Positions 2,353 to 12,250 of a stretch of DNA of 12,250 nt are shown here, one piece after another. This DNA is from Actinomycetota bacterium (GTDB taxonomy: Bacteria > Actinomycetota > Humimicrobiia > Humimicrobiales > Humimicrobiaceae), in contig JAMCVO010000771.1 of assembly GCA_023475715.1 (NCBI GenBank), forward strand, positions 1 through 12,250, written 5' to 3'. The notes under the pieces were generated by a model that did not search any database, was not told the DNA's origin, and was given only the letters and a program-made list of their open reading frames with translations. The stretch's first letter is position 1. Every line of letters begins with the position of its first letter. The position numbers and the translations under genes were made by a program.

Positions 2353-5300
2353 TTAAATAAAGCCTATTATATCACTTAAAGTGCTTAATACTAAATCTAA
2401 ATCTAAATTTTTGACAGGATTTTTAATAAGAACCTCTCCGCTTCTTGGCAAATAGACAAGATTGGGATTTTTATCGCTCATTTTAACAGCATTTGCAGCG
2501 CTCATCATTATTTTTTTCAGAAATATTCCCCTGCTTGAATTATAAATGATCTTTTCAATTTTAGCTTTTTTTAATATATTTTTTATAATAGCAATATTGA
2601 TTAAATTTTTTACCGGTTTTGGAACATTCCCAAACCTGTCAGCAATGCCTGAAGCTATTCTCTTTATATCCTCATCACTTTTAGCACTGCCTAAAGCTTT
2701 GTAAATATTTACTCTTTCTTTTTCATTTTTTATATAATTTTTTGGAATATAAGCACTCACAGGAAGCTCTATATGCACATTGATATCTTCCTCTACTGCA
2801 ATGCCTTTCAGCTTTTCAACTTCTTCCTTTATTATCTGGCAGTACATATCAAATCCTACACTATTAATATGCCCATGCTGTCTGGCTCCTAAAAGTTCTC
2901 CGGCACCCCGTATTTCCAGGTCTTTCATTGCTACTTTGTATCCTGAACCAAGTTCAGTATAATCTGAAAGCGTTTTAAGCCTTTGGAACGACTGGAAATT
3001 CAGATGCATTCTATCAGGATAAAAAAAGTAGGCATAAGCTTTTTCAGATGATCTTCCGACTCTTCCTCTGAGCTGATATAGCTGAGCCAGCCCAAACCTG
3101 TGAGAGTCTTCAACAATAAGAGTGTTTACATTGCTGATATCCATGCCCGACTCAATAATTGAAGTGGTGAGGAGTATATCGTACTTTTTGTTTAAGAAGT
3201 CCTGCATTATTTTTTCAATTTCTTCACCTTCCATCCTTCCATGAGTGACAGCAATACTTGCATCAGGAATAAGTATCTGAAGACGATATTTTTTTTCCTG
3301 CAAGCCTGCTATTCGGTTGAAAACATAATAAACCTGACCACCCCTTTTGATTTCTCTTTCAACCGCCATCTTGATGACGAGATTATCTTTTTCACCAACA
3401 AAAGTTTCAATAGGGACTCTTCCTACAGGATGAGTTTCAATCAAAATAATATCTCTGATTCCCGTAAGCGACATGTATAAGGTCCTTGGGATTGGGGTTG
3501 CAGAGAGTGTCAGGACATCAACTTCTTTTTTAAGCAGCTTTATTCTCTCCTTACTGTTTACCCCAAATCTCTGCTCTTCATCCACTATTACAAGCCCCAG
3601 ATCATTCGGCCTTATGTCATTGGAAAGCAACCTGTGGGTACCGATAAGCATGTCAATCCTGCCATCTTTAAAGTTTTTCAGGATTTCATTTTGCGATTTT
3701 TTGGACCTGAATCTGCTGATTACCTCTACAATAACTGGAAAGTTTTTATATCTTTCGCTGAATGTTCTGTAATGCTGGTCAGCAAGTATTGTGGTAGGGA
3801 CAAGCATTAAAACTTGTTTGCCGTTTTCAATTGCCTTGAAAGCTGCTCTAATGGCAATTTCTGTTTTCCCAAAGCCAACATCTCCGCAGAGCAATACATC
3901 CATCGGCTTTGAATCCTGCATTACGGTTTTAACATAATCGATTGCTTTAAGTTGATCTGCGGTTTCAGAAAACGGGAACAAATCCTCCATTTCTTTCTGC
4001 CATACATCATCCTGAGTAAATGAAAAACCTTCCTTTAAATTCCTTTCTGCATATAATGATGAGAGATCGATAGCCAGCTTGTGAACCGAGGTTCTTGCCT
4101 TCCTTTTGAGATTTTCCCATTGTTTTGGATTTAATGCGGTAATTGTTGGATTTTTATCACCAATGTATTTATGGATTCTGTCAGATTGCCATGCAGGCAC
4201 ATAAAGCCTGTCATTATTTGCATATTCTATAAGGAAATATTCCTTTTTACTATCACCAATCTGTTCAGAAACAATTTCAAGATACTTACCTATACCATGA
4301 GTCTTGTGAACAATATAATCTCCGGGGCTGAAATCCTCATAATCCTTTTCAATTACTGCCTCCATTGAATCCTGGCTATATTCCAGCTGTTCATATATGT
4401 CAAGCTCACCGTACAGAGAGGTAGATTTAGATTCATAGCCTCTGAACAATTTGCTGTCAATCATATTTACCACAGCATGGTTAAGGGTGAAAAAATCAAT
4501 TACATCAGTACACTGACTATCATTACCGGAACTTTTGCCCGAAGTATAATTTTTAAAAGATATGCTGCTGTCAAGTAAAATTTCAGTCACTTTTGCCCTT
4601 CTCTTTTGACTTTCAAGGGAAATTATTGTGATTTTTTTCTTTTTCAAATCTTTTTTTAAATTCTGTATAAAAATTTCAGAATTACCCAGGCTTTTTTTCT
4701 GTCTGGAAATTCCTTCAAAAACGAAAGCTCCTTCTTTATCTGCTTCAAGAAATGAAGAGGTAATATTTAACCTGTAATCAAAAGAATCATTTTCGGCAAA
4801 ATCCTTTTTTAAAATAACAGAATTTAATTGTATGTCAGCCATTTTTAAATTTTCATCGTCTTCAAAATCAACTGACTTTATAAGCATATCTATGTCGCTT
4901 TTTATTTTTAAATTTACTTCAAGGGGATCACAGACAATAAAACCAAATTCTTTTATATATTCTTTAGCAATTTGAAAAATTGAAACCATTTCTTCTGATT
5001 GATTAAATTGCTCATTCTGAAGAATGACCGCTTCTCCTGGCGCTTCCCAGGGATTAAGATTTGGAAATATCGATATACTTTCCAGGCTTCCTGCAGATTG
5101 CTGAGAATCAACGTCATAAATTATTATTTTTTCAACATTTTCATCCATCAAATCAATTCTTACAGGTTTTTCAGCGGTGACATCAAATATGTCAATGATA
5201 TCGCCCTTTGCACTGAATTCACCCTTGTCAAAAACTTTGTTTACACGCTCATAACCAGTATTGACAAGCTTTGAGATTAATTCATCCCGGTTCAGACTCT

Positions 5301-5742
5301 CTTTGGATTTTATAACTATGCTGTTTTGCCGGTTTATTTTGGATTTTGGTATTAAGTCTATTATAGAGCTGCTTGTTAATATGATTATGAAAGGTTTTTC
5401 CCCATCCCTATATTCCATAATCTTCTTAAAAACTTCAAGCCTGGCTGACAAATTCTCAATACCGGCAGCAGACTTGGTCTTTAAAAAAGAACCCCTGCCA
5501 ATTGTAGGATAGAAAAGAATTTGTACGCCGCCTACCAGCGGGTTTAACTCCATGGAAAGTTCGCTAGCCCTGTCAAGTGTCGAGGTTAGAACCAGTAGCG
5601 GAAATTGAAATTCATTAAGAAAAGACCCGATTAAAAAAGGCCAGATGCTCTCATCTGCAATAAGATTGGCCTTATGTGAATTTTTGTATTTTTCTATAAA
5701 ATCAAGCCATAGCTCTTCTTTATTAAAATTATTTATAAACAT
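2353..5742 (-). CDS. mfd: Transcription-repair coupling factor Mfd
   Basis: ATP-driven DNA translocase that removes RNA polymerase stalled at lesions and recruits UvrA. The 1129-residue length is normal for the family (about 1150). The N-terminal part is the UvrB-like module. A CarD-like RNA polymerase interaction domain starts near 470 with GDYIVHKTHGIGKY. The translocase follows with Walker A GDVGFGKTE near 620-628, DEEQ near 720, the LSATPIPRT motif and motif VI QLRGRVGRS. The C-terminal TRCF domain occupies about 985-1090. All helicase motifs look intact. The ATG at 5742 shares its A with the pth stop codon (TAATG), so translation is probably coupled to pth. The pth-mfd adjacency matches Bacillus. 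Confidence 0.97.
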   Translation of the reverse strand: MFINNFNKEELWLDFIEKYKNSHKANLIADESIWPFLIGSFLNEFQFPLLVLTSTLDRASELSMELNPLVGGVQILFYPTIGRGSFLKTKSAAGIENLSARLEVFKKIMEYRDGEKPFIIILTSSSIIDLIPKSKINRQNSIVIKSKESLNRDELISKLVNTGYERVNKVFDKGEFSAKGDIIDIFDVTAEKPVRIDLMDENVEKIIIYDVDSQQSAGSLESISIFPNLNPWEAPGEAVILQNEQFNQSEEMVSIFQIAKEYIKEFGFIVCDPLEVNLKIKSDIDMLIKSVDFEDDENLKMADIQLNSVILKKDFAENDSFDYRLNITSSFLEADKEGAFVFEGISRQKKSLGNSEIFIQNLKKDLKKKKITIISLESQKRRAKVTEILLDSSISFKNYTSGKSSGNDSQCTDVIDFFTLNHAVVNMIDSKLFRGYESKSTSLYGELDIYEQLEYSQDSMEAVIEKDYEDFSPGDYIVHKTHGIGKYLEIVSEQIGDSKKEYFLIEYANNDRLYVPAWQSDRIHKYIGDKNPTITALNPKQWENLKRKARTSVHKLAIDLSSLYAERNLKEGFSFTQDDVWQKEMEDLFPFSETADQLKAIDYVKTVMQDSKPMDVLLCGDVGFGKTEIAIRAAFKAIENGKQVLMLVPTTILADQHYRTFSERYKNFPVIVEVISRFRSKKSQNEILKNFKDGRIDMLIGTHRLLSNDIRPNDLGLVIVDEEQRFGVNSKERIKLLKKEVDVLTLSATPIPRTLYMSLTGIRDIILIETHPVGRVPIETFVGEKDNLVIKMAVEREIKRGGQVYYVFNRIAGLQEKKYRLQILIPDASIAVTHGRMEGEEIEKIMQDFLNKKYDILLTTSIIESGMDISNVNTLIVEDSHRFGLAQLYQLRGRVGRSSEKAYAYFFYPDRMHLNFQSFQRLKTLSDYTELGSGYKVAMKDLEIRGAGELLGARQHGHINSVGFDMYCQIIKEEVEKLKGIAVEEDINVHIELPVSAYIPKNYIKNEKERVNIYKALGSAKSDEDIKRIASGIADRFGNVPKPVKNLINIAIIKNILKKAKIEKIIYNSSRGIFLKKIMMSAANAVKMSDKNPNLVYLPRSGEVLIKNPVKNLDLDLVLSTLSDIIGFI

Positions 5743-6299
5743 TAATTATACTTGTTCATTGCAAAATTAATTCCGTTTTCAACATAATCCTTTAAAGCTT
5801 CGATGCTTATCGGAATAATAGAATCAAGTTCGCGAGTCTCCTTCATTTTAAATTTGGACAAGACAAAATCTGCAGGATCCTTATGCCCAAGGGGTCTTCC
5901 AATACCAAACCTTAGTCTGTCAAAATCAGAACGTCCAAGCTTTTTTACAATTGATTCAAGACCATTATGGCCGCCTGTTCCGCCTCCCGATTTAAACTTT
6001 ATTTCTCCAAACTCAATATCAAGATCGTCATGGATAACTATCATTGATTCTATCTTGTCTTCAAAGTGTTTAATCACCTTTAAAACTGCAGAGCCGCTGT
6101 TATTCATGAAAGTGCAAGGTTTTACGCAAAGCAGGTCTTTCCCGGCATATTCTGATTTAATGAGAATAGAGTTAAATTTGGAAATCTGAGCCAGTATTCC
6201 TGTTTCTTCACTGAATTTATCGAGTATTACAAAACCAATATTGTGCCTTGTCTGCTCATAATCTTTACCGGGGTTGCCAAGGCCAATAATTAATATCAT
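5742..6299 (-). CDS. pth: Peptidyl-tRNA hydrolase
   Basis: Cleaves the ester bond of peptidyl-tRNA released from stalled ribosomes, recycling the tRNA in the cytosol. The 185 residues match the usual Pth length. The signature GLGNPGKDYEQTRHNIGF lies at 6-23 and carries the catalytic His19 and Asn9. A second signature with the HDDLD core follows near 89-93, and the GGGTGGHNGL loop near 103-112 provides the substrate-binding Asn. The start ATG overlaps the rplY stop in an ATGA arrangement (4 nt), and the stop shares one base with the mfd start, so rplY, pth and mfd are likely translationally coupled. This ctc-pth order is standard in Bacillus (spoVC). Confidence 0.97.
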   Translation of the reverse strand: MILIIGLGNPGKDYEQTRHNIGFVILDKFSEETGILAQISKFNSILIKSEYAGKDLLCVKPCTFMNNSGSAVLKVIKHFEDKIESMIVIHDDLDIEFGEIKFKSGGGTGGHNGLESIVKKLGRSDFDRLRFGIGRPLGHKDPADFVLSKFKMKETRELDSIIPISIEALKDYVENGINFAMNKYN

Positions 6300-6982
6300 T
6301 TTTCTTCTTTTTCCTTATCAGAAACCTTTTCCTTTGATATCACCTCTGGTTCTGCAGCAGCAGCTTCCTCTTCCTCGACTGGAACTTCTTCAACAACAAG
6401 GTGCGTTGGATGAATGATAGAAACTATTATTTCTTCAGGATGACTTAAGACTTTTATCTCACTGCCGATGGTCAAATCAGATACTTTTATAATATGTCCC
6501 ATCTTTAAATCTGTAATATCGTAAGTTATCCTTTCAGGAATTTGCATTGGCAGACATGAAATATGCAGTTCCCTTAACCCATGCTGAACGACTCCGCCTT
6601 CTTCTTTAACTCCAATTGATTCTTCCTCATTTAATATTACCACAGGAACAGTAGTTTCCACTTCTTTCTCCATTTTAATTCTGTAAAAATCAATATGCAT
6701 AAATTCATGAGTAAAAGGATTTTTCTGAGTGTCCTTTATAATAGCAATTTCTTTTTTATTTTTACCGCCAATGTTCATCGTCATCTCAATAATTAAACTG
6801 GCAGCGCTTTTACCCTTTAAAATTTCCTTTAACTTCCTGGAATCAATTTTTATGCTTTGTGGTTCTTCTGCCTGGCCATAAATTGTTGCAGGAATAAAAC
6901 CACCAGCCCTTAACCTTCTGGATGAATTATTTTTTAATTCTTCTTTACTTCTGGTTTCTACTTTTAAAGAAACATTGCTCAT
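6296..6982 (-). CDS. rplY: Ribosomal protein bL25, long CTC/TL5 form
   Basis: 5S rRNA-binding protein of the large ribosomal subunit. The 228-residue product is the two-domain form (CTC in Bacillus, TL5 in Thermus), not the short E. coli L25. The N-terminal L25 domain covers about 1-95 and includes the AIIKDTQKNPFTHEFMHIDF segment near 79-98. The C-terminal TL5 beta domain covers about 100-195. The final 30 residues form a Glu/Lys/Ala-rich tail, common in this form. The ATG at 6982 is preceded on the minus strand by AAGGTGG, a strong ribosome-binding site about 7-8 nt upstream. It lies 28 nt after prs and overlaps pth by 4 nt. Confidence 0.95.
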   Translation of the reverse strand: MSNVSLKVETRSKEELKNNSSRRLRAGGFIPATIYGQAEEPQSIKIDSRKLKEILKGKSAASLIIEMTMNIGGKNKKEIAIIKDTQKNPFTHEFMHIDFYRIKMEKEVETTVPVVILNEEESIGVKEEGGVVQHGLRELHISCLPMQIPERITYDITDLKMGHIIKVSDLTIGSEIKVLSHPEEIIVSIIHPTHLVVEEVPVEEEEAAAAEPEVISKEKVSDKEKEEK

Positions 6983-7010
6983 AATAACCCCACCTTAAAT
7001 AGAATATTTA

Positions 7011-7979
7011 TTATACCAAATTTTCTCCCTTGAATAAGGAGCTCACAGATTTGCAATGATAAACTTTTTTTATAGTTTTTGCAAGAAGCGGAGCAATTGA
7101 AACCACTTTTATTTTATCCTGTCTGAATTCTTTATTAATAGGCAGTGTGTCGGAAACTATAATTTCTTCTGCCTTTGAATTTTCAAGAAGCTCTATTGCA
7201 TTACCTGAAAAAATGGCATGAGTGGCGCCTACAAATACTCTTCTCGCTCCGAATCTGATAAGCATATCAATAGCTTCTACTATGGTGCCTCCCGTATCTA
7301 TCATATCATCAAAAATAATTGCATCCTTATCCTCAACGTCTCCAACAAGATGGTCCATTTTTGCCTGGTTAGGTCCAGGTCTTACCTTATCAAGAATTGC
7401 AAGCGGAAAATGCAGCTGATTTGCGAAAATACTTGCTCTTTTGACACCACCGACATCGGGACTGACAATGACACCTTTTTTTATATTCCTGGTTTTGAAA
7501 TAATTTGCAATTATAGGTATTGCAGTCACATGATCTACCGGAATATCAAAGAAGCCCTGTATTGTTGCAGAATGCAGGTCTGAAACAATAAGCCTGTCTA
7601 TTCCGGCAACCGAGAGCAGGTCGGCAATCAATTTAGCAGTTATTGGTTCCCTGCCTTCTGATTTCTTATCCTGTCTTGCATACCCATAATGCGGGATTAC
7701 ACAATTTATAATTCCAGCTGACGCTCGCTTAAGAGCATCTATCATTATAAGCAGCTCCATTATATTGGCATTTATAGGCTCACTGCATGTCTGAATAACA
7801 AAAACATCTGCACCCCTGACACTCTCGTCAAACCTGATATAAATTTCACCGTTTTTAAACTTTGTTCTTGTTACCTTACCCAGATTCATTTCAAGATTCT
7901 CTGCAATTTGTGTTGCCAGTTCAGGATTGGATGATCCTGAAAATAAAATCATCTTTTTATTGGTAGGATAGTCCTTCAT
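7011..7979 (-). CDS. prs: Ribose-phosphate pyrophosphokinase (PRPP synthetase)
   Basis: Converts ribose 5-phosphate and ATP to PRPP, the precursor for purines, pyrimidines, histidine, tryptophan and NAD. The 322 residues fit class I bacterial Prs (about 315). Visible features are the N-terminal FSGSSNPELA segment, the YARQDKK ATP-binding stretch, DLHSATIQGFFDIPVDH near 133-149, the SPDVGGVKRA segment, and the PRPP loop DDMIDTGGT near 223-231. The ATG at 7979 is preceded on the minus strand by AGGGGGAC at a good distance. That ribosome-binding site begins directly beside the adapter sequence at 7994-8009, so everything upstream of the prs leader must be treated with caution. glmU upstream and ctc downstream match known synteny. 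Confidence 0.97.
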   Translation of the reverse strand: MKDYPTNKKMILFSGSSNPELATQIAENLEMNLGKVTRTKFKNGEIYIRFDESVRGADVFVIQTCSEPINANIMELLIMIDALKRASAGIINCVIPHYGYARQDKKSEGREPITAKLIADLLSVAGIDRLIVSDLHSATIQGFFDIPVDHVTAIPIIANYFKTRNIKKGVIVSPDVGGVKRASIFANQLHFPLAILDKVRPGPNQAKMDHLVGDVEDKDAIIFDDMIDTGGTIVEAIDMLIRFGARRVFVGATHAIFSGNAIELLENSKAEEIIVSDTLPINKEFRQDKIKVVSIAPLLAKTIKKVYHCKSVSSLFKGENLV

Positions 7980-7991
7980 TATTTAGTCCCC

Positions 7992-8774
7992 CTAGATCGG
8001 AAGAGCGTCTAGCTTTTCATTTATCCTTGACTGCATTATTTTTTCAAGTCTTGTCAGCGCAGTCATGTCATTTATACCTTCTATTTCAAAATTATCCTGC
8101 ACCACAACACATGAAACTTTCTGTTTTGCATCAACAAAATTTTCAATAATATCCGTGAGATAGAACTCATTTTGAGAATTTTTTGAATCAATATTTTCAA
8201 GATAATCAAACAGGGATTTTGTTTTAAAACAGTAGATTGAAGAATTGATTTCACTTATCTTTTTCTCACTCTCAGATGCATCGGATTCCTCAACAATTTT
8301 CAAAATATTGTTCTTACTATCTTTGATTATCCGGCCGTAACCATTAGGATCATCAACCATTGCCGTTAAAATAACCGCTGTATTGCCTGATTGTTTCATA
8401 GCTTTGACAACTTTTTTTAAAGTAGAATCACTTATGAGAGGGGTATCGCCTGGTATTACAAGGCAAATATCCCCTAGTTCTCCGATACGGTTTTTCAGCA
8501 TACTAACAGCATGGGCAGTGCCGAGCTGATTTTTCTGAATAACCGGAATTGCCATTGGGAAATTACTGCTTAAAAATTTTTGGACTTTCTCAGCTTTGTG
8601 CCCAATAATAACAAATAAATTTTTTGGGTTTAATTTAAGTGCGGAGGTTAAAATATAATGAATTATGGGTTTACGACAAATATTGTGAAGAACTTTAGGG
8701 ATGTCGGATTTCATGCGTTTGCCTTTACCGGCTGCAAGCACAATAACAGTTAGATTTTTATTATTTGTGCTCAA
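7992..8774 (-). CDS. glmU: GlmU uridylyltransferase half, truncated at an adapter junction
   Basis: N-terminal half of the bifunctional enzyme that makes UDP-GlcNAc for peptidoglycan. This half transfers UMP to GlcNAc-1-phosphate. Seen are LAAGKGKRM (13-21 from the chosen start), the K of IPKVLH, QLGTAHAV, PGDTPLIS, GYGRII and NEFYLTDII, all of the nucleotidyltransferase fold. The native frame ends at 8010. The last five residues (DALPI) and the T of the stop codon come from the adapter. About 200 residues of left-handed beta-helix acetyltransferase domain are missing compared with the usual 450 or so. I chose TTG at 8774 because AGGTGG (8788-8783) sits 8 nt upstream; a GTG at 8798 would add eight residues but lacks a ribosome-binding site. 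The start overlaps the upstream small gene by 14 nt. Confidence 0.9.
   Translation of the reverse strand: MSTNNKNLTVIVLAAGKGKRMKSDIPKVLHNICRKPIIHYILTSALKLNPKNLFVIIGHKAEKVQKFLSSNFPMAIPVIQKNQLGTAHAVSMLKNRIGELGDICLVIPGDTPLISDSTLKKVVKAMKQSGNTAVILTAMVDDPNGYGRIIKDSKNNILKIVEESDASESEKKISEINSSIYCFKTKSLFDYLENIDSKNSQNEFYLTDIIENFVDAKQKVSCVVVQDNFEIEGINDMTALTRLEKIMQSRINEKLDALPI
7994..8009. other. Embedded Illumina TruSeq adapter fragment (assembly join)
   Basis: The plus strand reads AGATCGGAAGAGCGTC, an exact 16-base match to the start of the Illumina read-through adapter. The minus strand is the 3' end of the P5-side adapter (ending CTCTTCCGATCT). The match stops after 16 bases. A chance exact match in 12 kb is expected only a few times per million such windows. 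It also falls exactly where the GlmU frame leaves the family, encoding DALPI and then a stop. The simplest reading is an untrimmed read end that was assembled, joining glmU DNA on the right to the prs leader on the left with unknown sequence lost between them. Confidence 0.93.
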
Positions 8775-9072
8775 TAATTTTTCCACCTGAAATTTCACTG
8801 GATATTAAATTGTAGTTTTCACCAAAATAAGCAGTAAGATAAATCAGATTATTGCACTTCTTGCCAAGTATTTCTTTCCTCAGTAAAAAGGCTGACCCTG
8901 CAGGGCCTTCTTCTTCATCATAAAGCCTTGAAATATCGCTGCTTCTTCGAACATTGACAGTAATTTCTTCGCCGCATCTGTTACATTGGACATTAAAATT
9001 TATAAAGTTTGAAGTGCTTGAATAAACAGGTGCTGAAAAAAAATTTTTTAAATTTTGTAAAAAACTAGCCAT
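8761..9072 (-). CDS. Small conserved-type CxxC protein upstream of glmU
   Basis: Protein of 103 residues without an assigned function. From the ATG at 9072 it has a short hydrophobic/basic start, a CNRC pair at 30-33, a basic/acidic stretch ending in a DEEE cluster, then LLRKEILGKKC with Cys73 and a C-terminal GGKII. Three cysteines could bind a metal or form part of a zinc ribbon with a partner; this is inference. The pattern (CxRCGE, RKEI-G-xxC, then a GG motif) resembles short hypothetical proteins I recall from several bacterial phyla. An in-frame TTG at 9114 would add 14 residues but overlaps the divergent gene's promoter; neither start has a clear ribosome-binding site. Its last codons contain the glmU ribosome-binding site, so the two are probably co-translated. 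Confidence 0.65.
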   Translation of the reverse strand: MASFLQNLKNFFSAPVYSSTSNFINFNVQCNRCGEEITVNVRRSSDISRLYDEEEGPAGSAFLLRKEILGKKCNNLIYLTAYFGENYNLISSEISGGKIIEHK

Positions 9073-9094
9073 AACAAATTGTATTTTAACAAAT

Positions 9095-9123
9095 TTGGCA
9101 GATATATTAAACAATATTATAAT
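9095..9123 (+). promoter_or_regulatory. Sigma70-type promoter for the radical SAM gene
   Basis: TTGGCA (9095-9100) and TATAAT (9118-9123) are separated by exactly 17 bp. This differs by one base from the TTGACA-N17-TATAAT consensus. Transcription would start near 9130 and read rightward into the radical SAM gene. The promoter lies upstream of the ATG of the leftward small gene, in the divergent spacer. If it is real, the TTG at 9079 cannot start translation of this transcript. Confidence 0.5.
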
Positions 9124-9132
9124 ACAAATGAA

Positions 9133-10059
9133 TTGAAAAGCAGGACATCAAAATCTAAACAGTTTTGTTACTTTGCAGGATTTGCATTAATCAGCAGGCT
9201 AGGTTCAAAATATAAAAAACCTCTGATAAGCAGCTTTAAGCTGACTAATAAGTGTACACTTAAATGCCTCCACTGTCCTTTCTGGAGAAATAATGAAATC
9301 CTGGAACTTAACTATGATGAGGCTGACGCAATTCTTCAAAGATTGTACAGGGACGGGATTAAAATAGTAATCTTTGAAGGAGGAGAGCCTCTTATATGGA
9401 AAGACAGGGAAAGGAACAAAGATATCCATGATATTATCAAAATGGCAAAAGAATTATTTTATTATGTTGGTGTTACAACAAACGGCACCGTGGAACTTGC
9501 CAATATTGAGTCTGACATTATATTTGTAAGTATTGACGGCATGCAAAAAACGCACGACGCAATCCGCGGTAAAAGCTTTGACAGGATAATAGGAAACATA
9601 AAAGCAAATAAAAACACTAAAAAAATAATTGCAAATATCTGCATAAGCAAAATCAACCGGAAAGAAATTCCTGAACTTGTAAAATTTCTAAATGACATCA
9701 CCTATGGTATAACCATTCAATTCTTTTATCCTTATTCCAATGTCGGGGACCTGACTATAAATTTGCAGGAAAAAGAACAACTGCTTAAAGATCTGATAAA
9801 ATTAAAAAAAGAGGGATACAAAATTTTAGATTCGGCTGCCTGCCTTGAGAGGATGATGAAAAATACCTGGAAATGTTATGATTTTTTGGTATCAAGTGTG
9901 GAGCCCGATGGCAAAACCTATTATGGGTGTTATTTAAAGAATAAAGCTGATAATGTATCCTGCAGGGACTGCGGCTTTGCTGTGCATTGTGAAATATCGC
10001 TTGCTTATGGTTTAAATATTGACGCTTTAAATTCTGCCAGAAAAATATTCTGGGGATAG
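9133..10059 (+). CDS. Radical SAM protein with SPASM-like C-terminal cysteines
   Basis: Predicted radical S-adenosylmethionine enzyme of unknown substrate. Numbering from an in-frame TTG at 9079, the cluster motif CTLKCLHC supplies Cys59, Cys63 and Cys66 for the SAM-binding 4Fe-4S cluster. The FEGGEPL segment is the GGE motif contacting SAM, and the SIDG strand fits the partial TIM barrel. The C-terminus has Cys255, Cys266, Cys284, Cys295, Cys298 and Cys304. The C-x(n)-G-x5-C then CxxCx5C spacing resembles a SPASM or twitch auxiliary-cluster domain. The start is uncertain: TTG at 9079 precedes the likely promoter, so I prefer TTG at 9133, just after the expected transcription start, which would be nearly leaderless. 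No ATG is available before the cluster motif. The gene stands alone, divergent from the glmU side and convergent with the hydrolase gene. Confidence 0.82.
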   Translation: MKSRTSKSKQFCYFAGFALISRLGSKYKKPLISSFKLTNKCTLKCLHCPFWRNNEILELNYDEADAILQRLYRDGIKIVIFEGGEPLIWKDRERNKDIHDIIKMAKELFYYVGVTTNGTVELANIESDIIFVSIDGMQKTHDAIRGKSFDRIIGNIKANKNTKKIIANICISKINRKEIPELVKFLNDITYGITIQFFYPYSNVGDLTINLQEKEQLLKDLIKLKKEGYKILDSAACLERMMKNTWKCYDFLVSSVEPDGKTYYGCYLKNKADNVSCRDCGFAVHCEISLAYGLNIDALNSARKIFWG

Positions 10060-11071: not shown

Positions 11072-12130
11072 TTATTTTGGCAATATTTTTGTTTCCTGCT
11101 GAGCTGTACGCTCTCTTCTGGGTGTAAAAAAATCAACAAGATTCGAAAAAAACCCTCTTTTTTCCTTATAGATAATCGGCTGCCCGCAAAATGTATAATA
11201 ATTTATATTTTTAAGATAAACTATAAGTCTTATGATTGCCACAATCACACCAAGAAGGGCGGCAAGAAAAAAACCTAACCCATAGATGTTTTCGGAATAA
11301 TTCATCGTCAGGTAAGTAAAAATAATATTACTGATTAAAAAAGTAACAGATACAGACAATGCCCCCCGCCTGTCTTCAAAATAAAGCAATATCAGTATTA
11401 TTATCAGCATGACTATATTAAAGTATGCACCAAGTGCAAGAACATTAAAAATATCAATAGACAGTTGGGACAAGCCAATTTTGGGCAGGAGATAATAACC
11501 CGCTGCAATAAAAACCAAGGTAAAAAATAATTGTATTTCCATTATATTTCTGATTTCAGACCAGAGAGTCTTTGTCATATCTTTTTTTGCATTCTCTATA
11601 TCAGTAAGATTGCCTTTTCCGGTTATTAAAGTGTAATACGCCTTATACTTGTCATAAAAAGATGTTTCAATTGATACTACAAACACAATCATTGAGGGCA
11701 TTATGGATAAAAAAGCATAAAATGTCGGAACATCATAAGTAGGTGCATATACATATGTTCCGGCTATCCTGACACCAAGTTCGCTTGTCCAGAACAAGAA
11801 ATTATGTACGTATAGACCAAGTGTATAAAAAAAAGCAATAAAAAATAATGATGGATATTTATCAAAATGCCGCATAAATTCAAAATACCTGTTTACCGAT
11901 TTGCCGAAGAAATTTTTAAGATACACCATTAAGGAAACTATGATTATAAAGAATCCCAAATCCATCGCAAACAATAATCCAAAAACTGCCTGCAGGTTTG
12001 TAAATTTCAAAAAGACAAAAGAGAGCACTAAAATTATCCCAATTCCCCATAAAAAACTTTTTACTATTTTCATATAATCTTTGAGGGTGGACAGATATTC
12101 CATCATTATAAAAACAATAACCAGCTGCAA
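11072..12130 (-). CDS. pelG: PelG, Pel exopolysaccharide membrane transporter subunit (5'-truncated)
   Basis: Polytopic membrane protein of the Pel polysaccharide synthesis and export complex, distantly related to MATE/Wzx flippases and partner of the glycosyltransferase PelF. Family hallmarks visible are the FLSALKDY-like segment (here EYLSTLKDY), the RYFEFMRHFDKYPSLFFIAFFYTLGLYVHNFLFW-type region near 81-115, SIETSFYDKYKAYY near 151, and the GxLxDIxxAKKxM segment. About eight membrane helices are recognisable. Usual PelG is about 450 residues or more, so roughly the first 120 are missing. The apparent TTG start at 12130 is not real: from 12116 rightward the DNA is a misplaced copy of an internal part of the same gene in another frame. 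Trustworthy coding sequence ends near 12115. The downstream neighbour is a PelA-like hydrolase. Confidence 0.85.
   Translation of the reverse strand: MQLVIVFIMMEYLSTLKDYMKIVKSFLWGIGIILVLSFVFLKFTNLQAVFGLLFAMDLGFFIIIVSLMVYLKNFFGKSVNRYFEFMRHFDKYPSLFFIAFFYTLGLYVHNFLFWTSELGVRIAGTYVYAPTYDVPTFYAFLSIMPSMIVFVVSIETSFYDKYKAYYTLITGKGNLTDIENAKKDMTKTLWSEIRNIMEIQLFFTLVFIAAGYYLLPKIGLSQLSIDIFNVLALGAYFNIVMLIIILILLYFEDRRGALSVSVTFLISNIIFTYLTMNYSENIYGLGFFLAALLGVIVAIIRLIVYLKNINYYTFCGQPIIYKEKRGFFSNLVDFFTPRRERTAQQETKILPK
11494..11628. repeat. Direct repeat, internal copy (within pelG)
   Basis: This 135-bp segment encodes part of PelG in frame (around ENAKKDMTKTLWSEI to IAAGY) and is the genuine copy. It recurs at 12116-12250 with one mismatch (C at 11501, A in the other copy), offset by 622 bp. 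Confidence 0.95.
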
Positions 12131-12250
12131 TAAAAACCAAGGTAAAAAATAATTGTATTTCCATTATATTTCTGATTTCAGACCAGAGAGTCTTTGTCAT
12201 ATCTTTTTTTGCATTCTCTATATCAGTAAGATTGCCTTTTCCGGTTATTA
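12116..12250. repeat. Direct repeat, terminal copy (probable contig-end artefact)
   Basis: Copy of 11494-11628 that runs to the last base of the window. The 622-bp offset is not a multiple of three, so the copy puts the PelG peptide in a frame incompatible with the gene it joins. Its left edge coincides with seven bases (AATAACC) shared by both loci, a typical micro-homology join. Confidence 0.95.

Follow-up and report, generated by a model that had tools for sequence, protein, structure and literature searches.

The window, by which we mean the whole stretch of 12,250 nucleotides analysed here, seems to make up its entire contig. On its reverse strand lies an open reading frame of 268 codons that starts at GTG (7992..8798, minus strand), followed by prs (7011..7979, minus strand), which encodes a ribose-phosphate diphosphokinase and scores over cut-off against both TIGR01251 and PRK01259. 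The order glmU-prs is one that it has in common with bifunctional GlmU. The protein of the window matches PF00483, and its match to TIGR01173, the profile of bifunctional GlmU, covers positions 2-244 of 452 at 266.9 bits, below the cut-off of 366.85. By profile and fold it corresponds to the uridylyltransferase half of that enzyme, whereas the C-terminal beta-helix acetyltransferase half is absent, as a preliminary description of this DNA had rightly observed. The N-terminal domain carries the glycine-rich AAGxGKRM motif of GlmU uridylyltransferases, whose columns, one lysine excepted, are invariant among 17 aligned sequences. An AlphaFold2 model built from 17 sequences (pLDDT 87.7, pTM 0.87) comprises a nucleotidyltransferase domain with a long helix at its end, and GlmU structures are its closest Foldseek neighbours. 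These matches include PDB 1fwy and 1fxj, fragments of E. coli GlmU in which the uridylyltransferase part likewise folds without the full beta-helix; the fragments are presumably laboratory constructs, whereas the short GlmU of the window's lineage appears to be natural. One homologue, P0013, retains a short stretch after the domain that resembles, by eye, GAGTxTCNYDG, a motif belonging to the helix that was lost. Elsewhere in the window, a direct repeat of 135 bp (11494-11628 and 12116-12250, differing at a single position) duplicates part of the frame at 11072-12130; the second copy runs exactly to the last base of the contig, and the repeat has the look of an artefact of assembly there.

The last residues encoded by this glmU are almost certainly adapter-derived. 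Sixteen bases at 7994-8009 of the forward strand, AGATCGGAAGAGCGTC, agree with part of the Illumina TruSeq read-through adapter with 0 mismatches; the match to the read-2 read-through sequence spans these 16 bases and departs thereafter. They encode DALPI, the C-terminal residues of the 268-residue GlmU, and share a single base with the stop codon TAG (7992-7994); both the identification of the adapter and its reach into the tail and stop had been described correctly. In viral contigs, the adapter 16-mer is present in at least 120 stretches and the reversed 16-mer, used as a control, in 1; among the matches listed (120 viral loci), 125 of 126 adapter copies lie less than 200 bases from a contig end, at a median of 14.5. 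Among the 126 matches listed, a single copy has over 300 bases between it and a contig end; it lies at coordinate 25655 of the 42-kb record L102 and consists of the identical 16 bases followed by one N. The copy in the window lies away from the usual contig-end position, with the nearest contig end 4,241 bases distant, and is therefore unusual, an internal scar. Passages of PMC11536531 report Illumina adapter in genome records of microbial assemblies, and a concentration of this contamination at contig ends. The window resembles those cases in containing an Illumina adapter within a genome record, and differs from those at contig ends in that its scar is internal and the length of the sequence is nearly preserved.

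The opposing view, that these bases belong to the organism and resemble the adapter only by coincidence, could appeal to the open frame and to a tail as long as that of six relatives, yet we regard it as very improbable. An exact 16-mer would be expected in 1.5e-6 copies, given 12,250 bases of the window's composition and both strands, and the GlmU tails of relatives are mostly lysine-rich, unlike DALPI. Our class set comprises 40 genomes, including G001 and G002, the genomes of contigs L001 (from an Actinomycetota MAG) and L002 (Ca. Calidifonticultor, class Ca. Humimicrobiia). Only one of the 40, G012, contains the 16-mer, at a contig start, and none contains the control. An exact adapter start stands where relatives have none, L001 having other sequence at this place: identity to L001 is 15/20 at 7980-7999 (including a 2-nt gap) and 10/20 columns at 8000-8019, and is regained immediately on either side, such that some 15 nt of the native glmU tail differ and have been replaced. 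The adapter might have entered, for example, through untrimmed read-through tails taken up in a thin consensus.

The preliminary description went further, holding that the adapter marks a collapse which removed 600 bp or more from a full-length GlmU and left behind a false stop and an apparent single-domain protein. Two observations lend this account some plausibility: the adapter lies inside the contig, and full GlmU is common elsewhere, for example among the 119 genomes drawn from G043's phylum (labelled Acidobacteria), of which 94 exceed the TIGR01173 cut-off. The relatives nevertheless tell against it. Window positions 3245-9177 align to L001 at 90% DNA identity and remain colinear across the junction save for the single 2-nt gap; since L001 runs colinear through the junction, nothing like 600 bp is missing. 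In L001, too, a short GlmU runs into prs, and the linker is 2 nt shorter than that of the window, so that glmU-prs spacing in a relative, which had been proposed as a check, reveals no such loss. All of the TAG except its one shared base is outside the adapter, and it pairs with a TAG in L001; there it falls out of frame because of the shorter linker, and the GlmU frame of L001 continues until it overlaps prs, measuring 281 codons stop to stop in all. All 11 of the closest non-self GlmU proteins (P0002-P0012, compared as proteins) measure 260-270 residues, at 76-84% identity to that of the window in one comparison and 74-83% in another, and six of them (P0002, P0004, P0005, P0009, P0010 and P0011) end five residues past the point where the adapter tail starts, exactly as the window's protein does. 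Moreover, a tblastn search with six C-half queries at E 0.01 found no beta-helix remnants after the glmU stop in 35 class genomes. For the close relatives the collapse is refuted by these sequence comparisons, and for the window itself we hold it to be exceedingly improbable. Of the preliminary interpretation as a whole, the adapter origin stands; the missing sequence, the false stop and the false single-domain GlmU do not. A relative with the same short GlmU, which that description had named as grounds for abandoning its own reading, exists in L001, though without the same 16 bases, and its warning against taking the locus as evidence for a split GlmU is wrong for this lineage, given that close relatives have the short GlmU in common. 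The adapter overwrote a short, variable, mostly lysine-rich tail and left the architecture unchanged. Farther along the alignment, some 680 bp of the window (9178-9859) are absent from L001, in which the two flanking parts lie next to each other, a few bases apart at most (L001 2832-2838); these bases belong to a frame at 9079-10059 that is radical-SAM-like by eye, and deletion, insertion or misassembly are candidate causes of the difference.

Across the class, a GlmU frame was read in 39 of the 40 genomes (G040 has no clear GlmU) and scored for the acetyltransferase motif HxxYxGD, which is kept in 23 of 40. In 12 of 40 (G001, G008, G009, G016, G018, G021, G022, G028, G029, G031, G035 and G036) GlmU ends at a stop without the motif, at 261-404 codons stop to stop, G016 and G021 having lost it by internal deletion. 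Five genomes were left unclassified: G040, and G020, G024, G026 and G032, in which the frame is cut by contig ends. Downstream of the glmU stop, prs was found in 33 of 35 genomes tested; the two exceptions are G005 and G034, whose stretches run out after a further 56 and 428 bases. A full-length GlmU hidden elsewhere in G001 was considered and rejected, as TIGR01173 matches the short GlmU of that genome at 263 bits and its seven other matches there, none of which spans the model, score 60.1 bits at most. Judged from these sequences of its relatives, the short GlmU, a uridylyltransferase domain alone, is a genuine feature of the window's lineage.

The genomes without the motif have in common a second gene. 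A separate beta-helix gene was found in all 12 of them, near full length in 10 and as pieces of 212 residues (G036) and 40 residues (G021) at contig ends, whereas the 23 genomes with the motif contain no intact copy, G013 and G015 keeping remnants before glmM. G020, G026, G032 and G040 gave no match to it. The remaining unclassified genome, G024, holds a 126-residue piece 96% identical to the protein of G001, beside a glmM 94% identical to that of G001; it has two glmM genes (G024:C77 and G024:C1), and the piece with its glmM is possibly contamination of the MAG. Fisher's exact test for 12/12 versus 0/23, which ignores kinship, gives 1.2e-9; with the remnants of G013 and G015 counted as present it gives 1.1e-7, and with G021 additionally counted as absent 2.1e-6, kinship being ignored in both. 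On a tree of 40 rows (the window and 39 genomes, with the GlmU part in 34 rows and the Prs part in 34), the truncated state requires 9 changes, 8 without the unclassified rows, 4 of them forced by well-supported branches. Independent contrasts on well-supported branches agree in 4 of 4 cases (p 0.125), out of 8 contrasts on all branches. Because the class genomes are mostly drafts, with glmM itself not found at E 1e-60 in 5 of 40, absence of the separate gene is soft evidence.

What the separate gene encodes can be predicted in some detail. In G001 its product is a protein of 268 residues (L168, 1358-2161). Among NCBIfam models it matches TIGR03992 best, in the C-terminal acetyltransferase half (1.2e-42). 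Its 146 bits fall below the TIGR03992 cut-off of 292, which is accounted for by the absence of a nucleotidyltransferase half; the corresponding protein of G041, a genome of a second phylum, matches TIGR03992 at 8.2e-52. Alternative assignments to LpxA, LpxD or DapD were rejected at 21-24 bits for the L168 protein, as was PRK00892 (an LpxD-like model) at 29 bits, against 146 for TIGR03992. The best solved relatives are structures of Sulfolobus tokodaii ST0452 (PDB 5z09 and 2ggo; profile 4e-27 and 6e-27), and a model of the relative P0150, built from 30 sequences (pLDDT 93.0), retrieves ST0452 and then GlmU as its top Foldseek matches, with moderate TM-scores to ST0452 of 0.48-0.57 of the query. 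The protein is in this respect a left-handed beta-helix related to ST0452. His308, Tyr311 and Asn331, residues described for ST0452, are kept in the alignment, and H166, Y169 and N188 of the separate protein are the same in every sequence of two sets, one of 17 and one of 30. K337 and K340, presumably important lysines of ST0452, align with S and V. Its best reading is a predicted archaeal-type glucosamine-1-phosphate acetyltransferase, matching the acetyltransferase half of the archaeal bifunctional TIGR03992 enzyme. Unlike ST0452, it stands alone, with an N-terminal part of its own and no nucleotidyltransferase half, and it occurs in bacteria, in the class beside glmM. Six database proteins (P0130, P0136, P0140, P0150, P0184 and P0219) are named 'glucose-1-phosphate thymidylyltransferase' and show no nucleotidyltransferase among their precomputed Pfam domains; they are probably misnamed.

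The genomic position of the separate gene suggests a link to the same pathway. GlmM produces glucosamine-1-phosphate, the substrate of the missing GlmU domain, and at each of the 10 loci read the separate gene is followed immediately, on its own strand, by glmM (G001, G008, G009, G016, G018, G022, G028, G029, G031 and G035; identified by TIGR01455 matches, with the family scanned at two). It also lies directly 3' of the separate gene in G036 and G024, making 12 loci in all with that side read. A gene related to glucosamine-6-phosphate deaminase is found near 6 of the 10 loci (family scanned for two). Among 22 class glmM loci compared, glmM is either at least about 70% or 42-47% identical to that of G001; the former group comprises those beside the separate gene together with G006, G007, G013, G015 and G033, and the latter includes, for example, G003, G011, G012, G034 and G037-G040. 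Given these two groups, it may be that glmM and the separate gene were exchanged as a unit.

Close kin have lost opposite copies. The GlmU of G016 is identical to that of G017 at 380 of 396 aligned residues, and it lacks a 76-residue block holding the active site, while the separate gene of G016 is intact. G013 and G015, close kin of G016, combine a full GlmU with a deleted separate gene: G013 retains only its first part just before glmM (tblastn E 1e-5), and G015 an internally deleted frame of 111 codons at the same position. Redundancy between two equivalent functions predicts reciprocal loss of this kind. Such remnants are not general, since in G006 and G007, which have a full GlmU and a glmM about 70% identical to that of G001, the 1,488 upstream bases contain no vestige of the separate gene.

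One could argue that errors in MAG assembly account for the truncations and remnants seen among relatives. Most of the genomes are drafts, several cases sit at contig edges and one genome lies behind each case of reciprocal loss. Against this, clusters of short and mid-length GlmU recur in several contigs each, for example P0098 (382 residues, 9 contigs), P0040 (371 residues, 8), P0101 (397 residues, 6) and P0072 (257 residues, 6, the longest of 188 kb), and the separate gene is found on contigs of more than 100 kb (P0150, P0137). We regard assembly error as exceedingly improbable.

The second phylum, that of G041 (the genome of L003, labelled Ca. Methylomirabilis), was represented by 39 genomes. 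In 26 of these the GlmU match, taken without regard to contig ends, extends no farther than profile position 341, and the separate gene is found in 26 of 26, in G051 as a 107-residue piece; some GlmU frames extend past the profile match, to 458 residues. It is found in 0 of 8 genomes with a full GlmU. One genome, G047, has a full GlmU and the separate gene together, and in 4 neither one was found at the thresholds applied. In G041 the separate gene is not beside glmM, no scanned neighbour being glmM at the one locus read (L254). The phylum of G043 was considered as a third instance and set aside: at E 1e-30, in a search without a positive control, the separate gene was found in 0 of 119 genomes. 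A few truncated GlmU matches occur there without it (e.g., G172 and G159), which may reflect other solutions or contig ends. In G085, G101, G115, G128 and G164 of the same phylum, matches to the N- and C-terminal parts of GlmU lie on different contigs, perhaps a plain split of the gene.

We therefore consider it likely that the window combines a local adapter scar of about 15 nt with a naturally short GlmU whose acetylation step has moved to a stand-alone archaeal-type enzyme. GlmM would form glucosamine-1-phosphate, a left-handed beta-helix enzyme of the ST0452 type, encoded just upstream of glmM, would acetylate it, and the short GlmU would then add UMP from UTP to yield UDP-GlcNAc. The separate gene is presumably present in the window's own organism as well, by analogy with its relative G001. 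The separate enzyme would make the acetyltransferase domain of GlmU redundant, such that one or the other of the two copies could be lost, repeatedly. A different possibility is that the short GlmU is real and the separate protein acts on another sugar phosphate, with acetylation supplied by a GNA1-like enzyme acting on glucosamine-6-phosphate or by salvage of GlcNAc. Archaeal enzymes of the ST0452 fold act on more than one amino-sugar phosphate, and the two lysines assumed above to matter in ST0452 differ. However, the separate gene is placed with glmM, the source of glucosamine-1-phosphate, in two phyla it accompanies loss of the active site of GlmU, and losses are reciprocal in close kin; on balance we judge action on another substrate to be unlikely. 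The broader reading, which we think probable, is that in at least two bacterial phyla the bifunctional GlmU has been split repeatedly, with GlmU decaying to its uridylyltransferase part, a stand-alone archaeal-type acetyltransferase (beside glmM in one class) supplying the acetylation of glucosamine-1-phosphate, and reciprocal loss of one copy or the other among close relatives.

The bifunctional GlmU is regarded as essential and as a drug target. Searches of the open-licence PMC literature found no split GlmU of the sort described here; the phrase 'GlmU lacks' occurs in PMC6736417. As a record of contamination, the window is a case in which an adapter scar inside a contig affects just a few bases and costs no sequence; a reader heeding the artefact flag raised on it would have dismissed a genuine single-domain GlmU. 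If the reading given here is true, database proteins that at present often bear the name 'glucose-1-phosphate thymidylyltransferase' would acquire a function, and the reciprocal losses in close kin would serve as natural experiments. The acetyltransferase half of GlmU would then have been replaced naturally and repeatedly, meaning that the two steps can be uncoupled.
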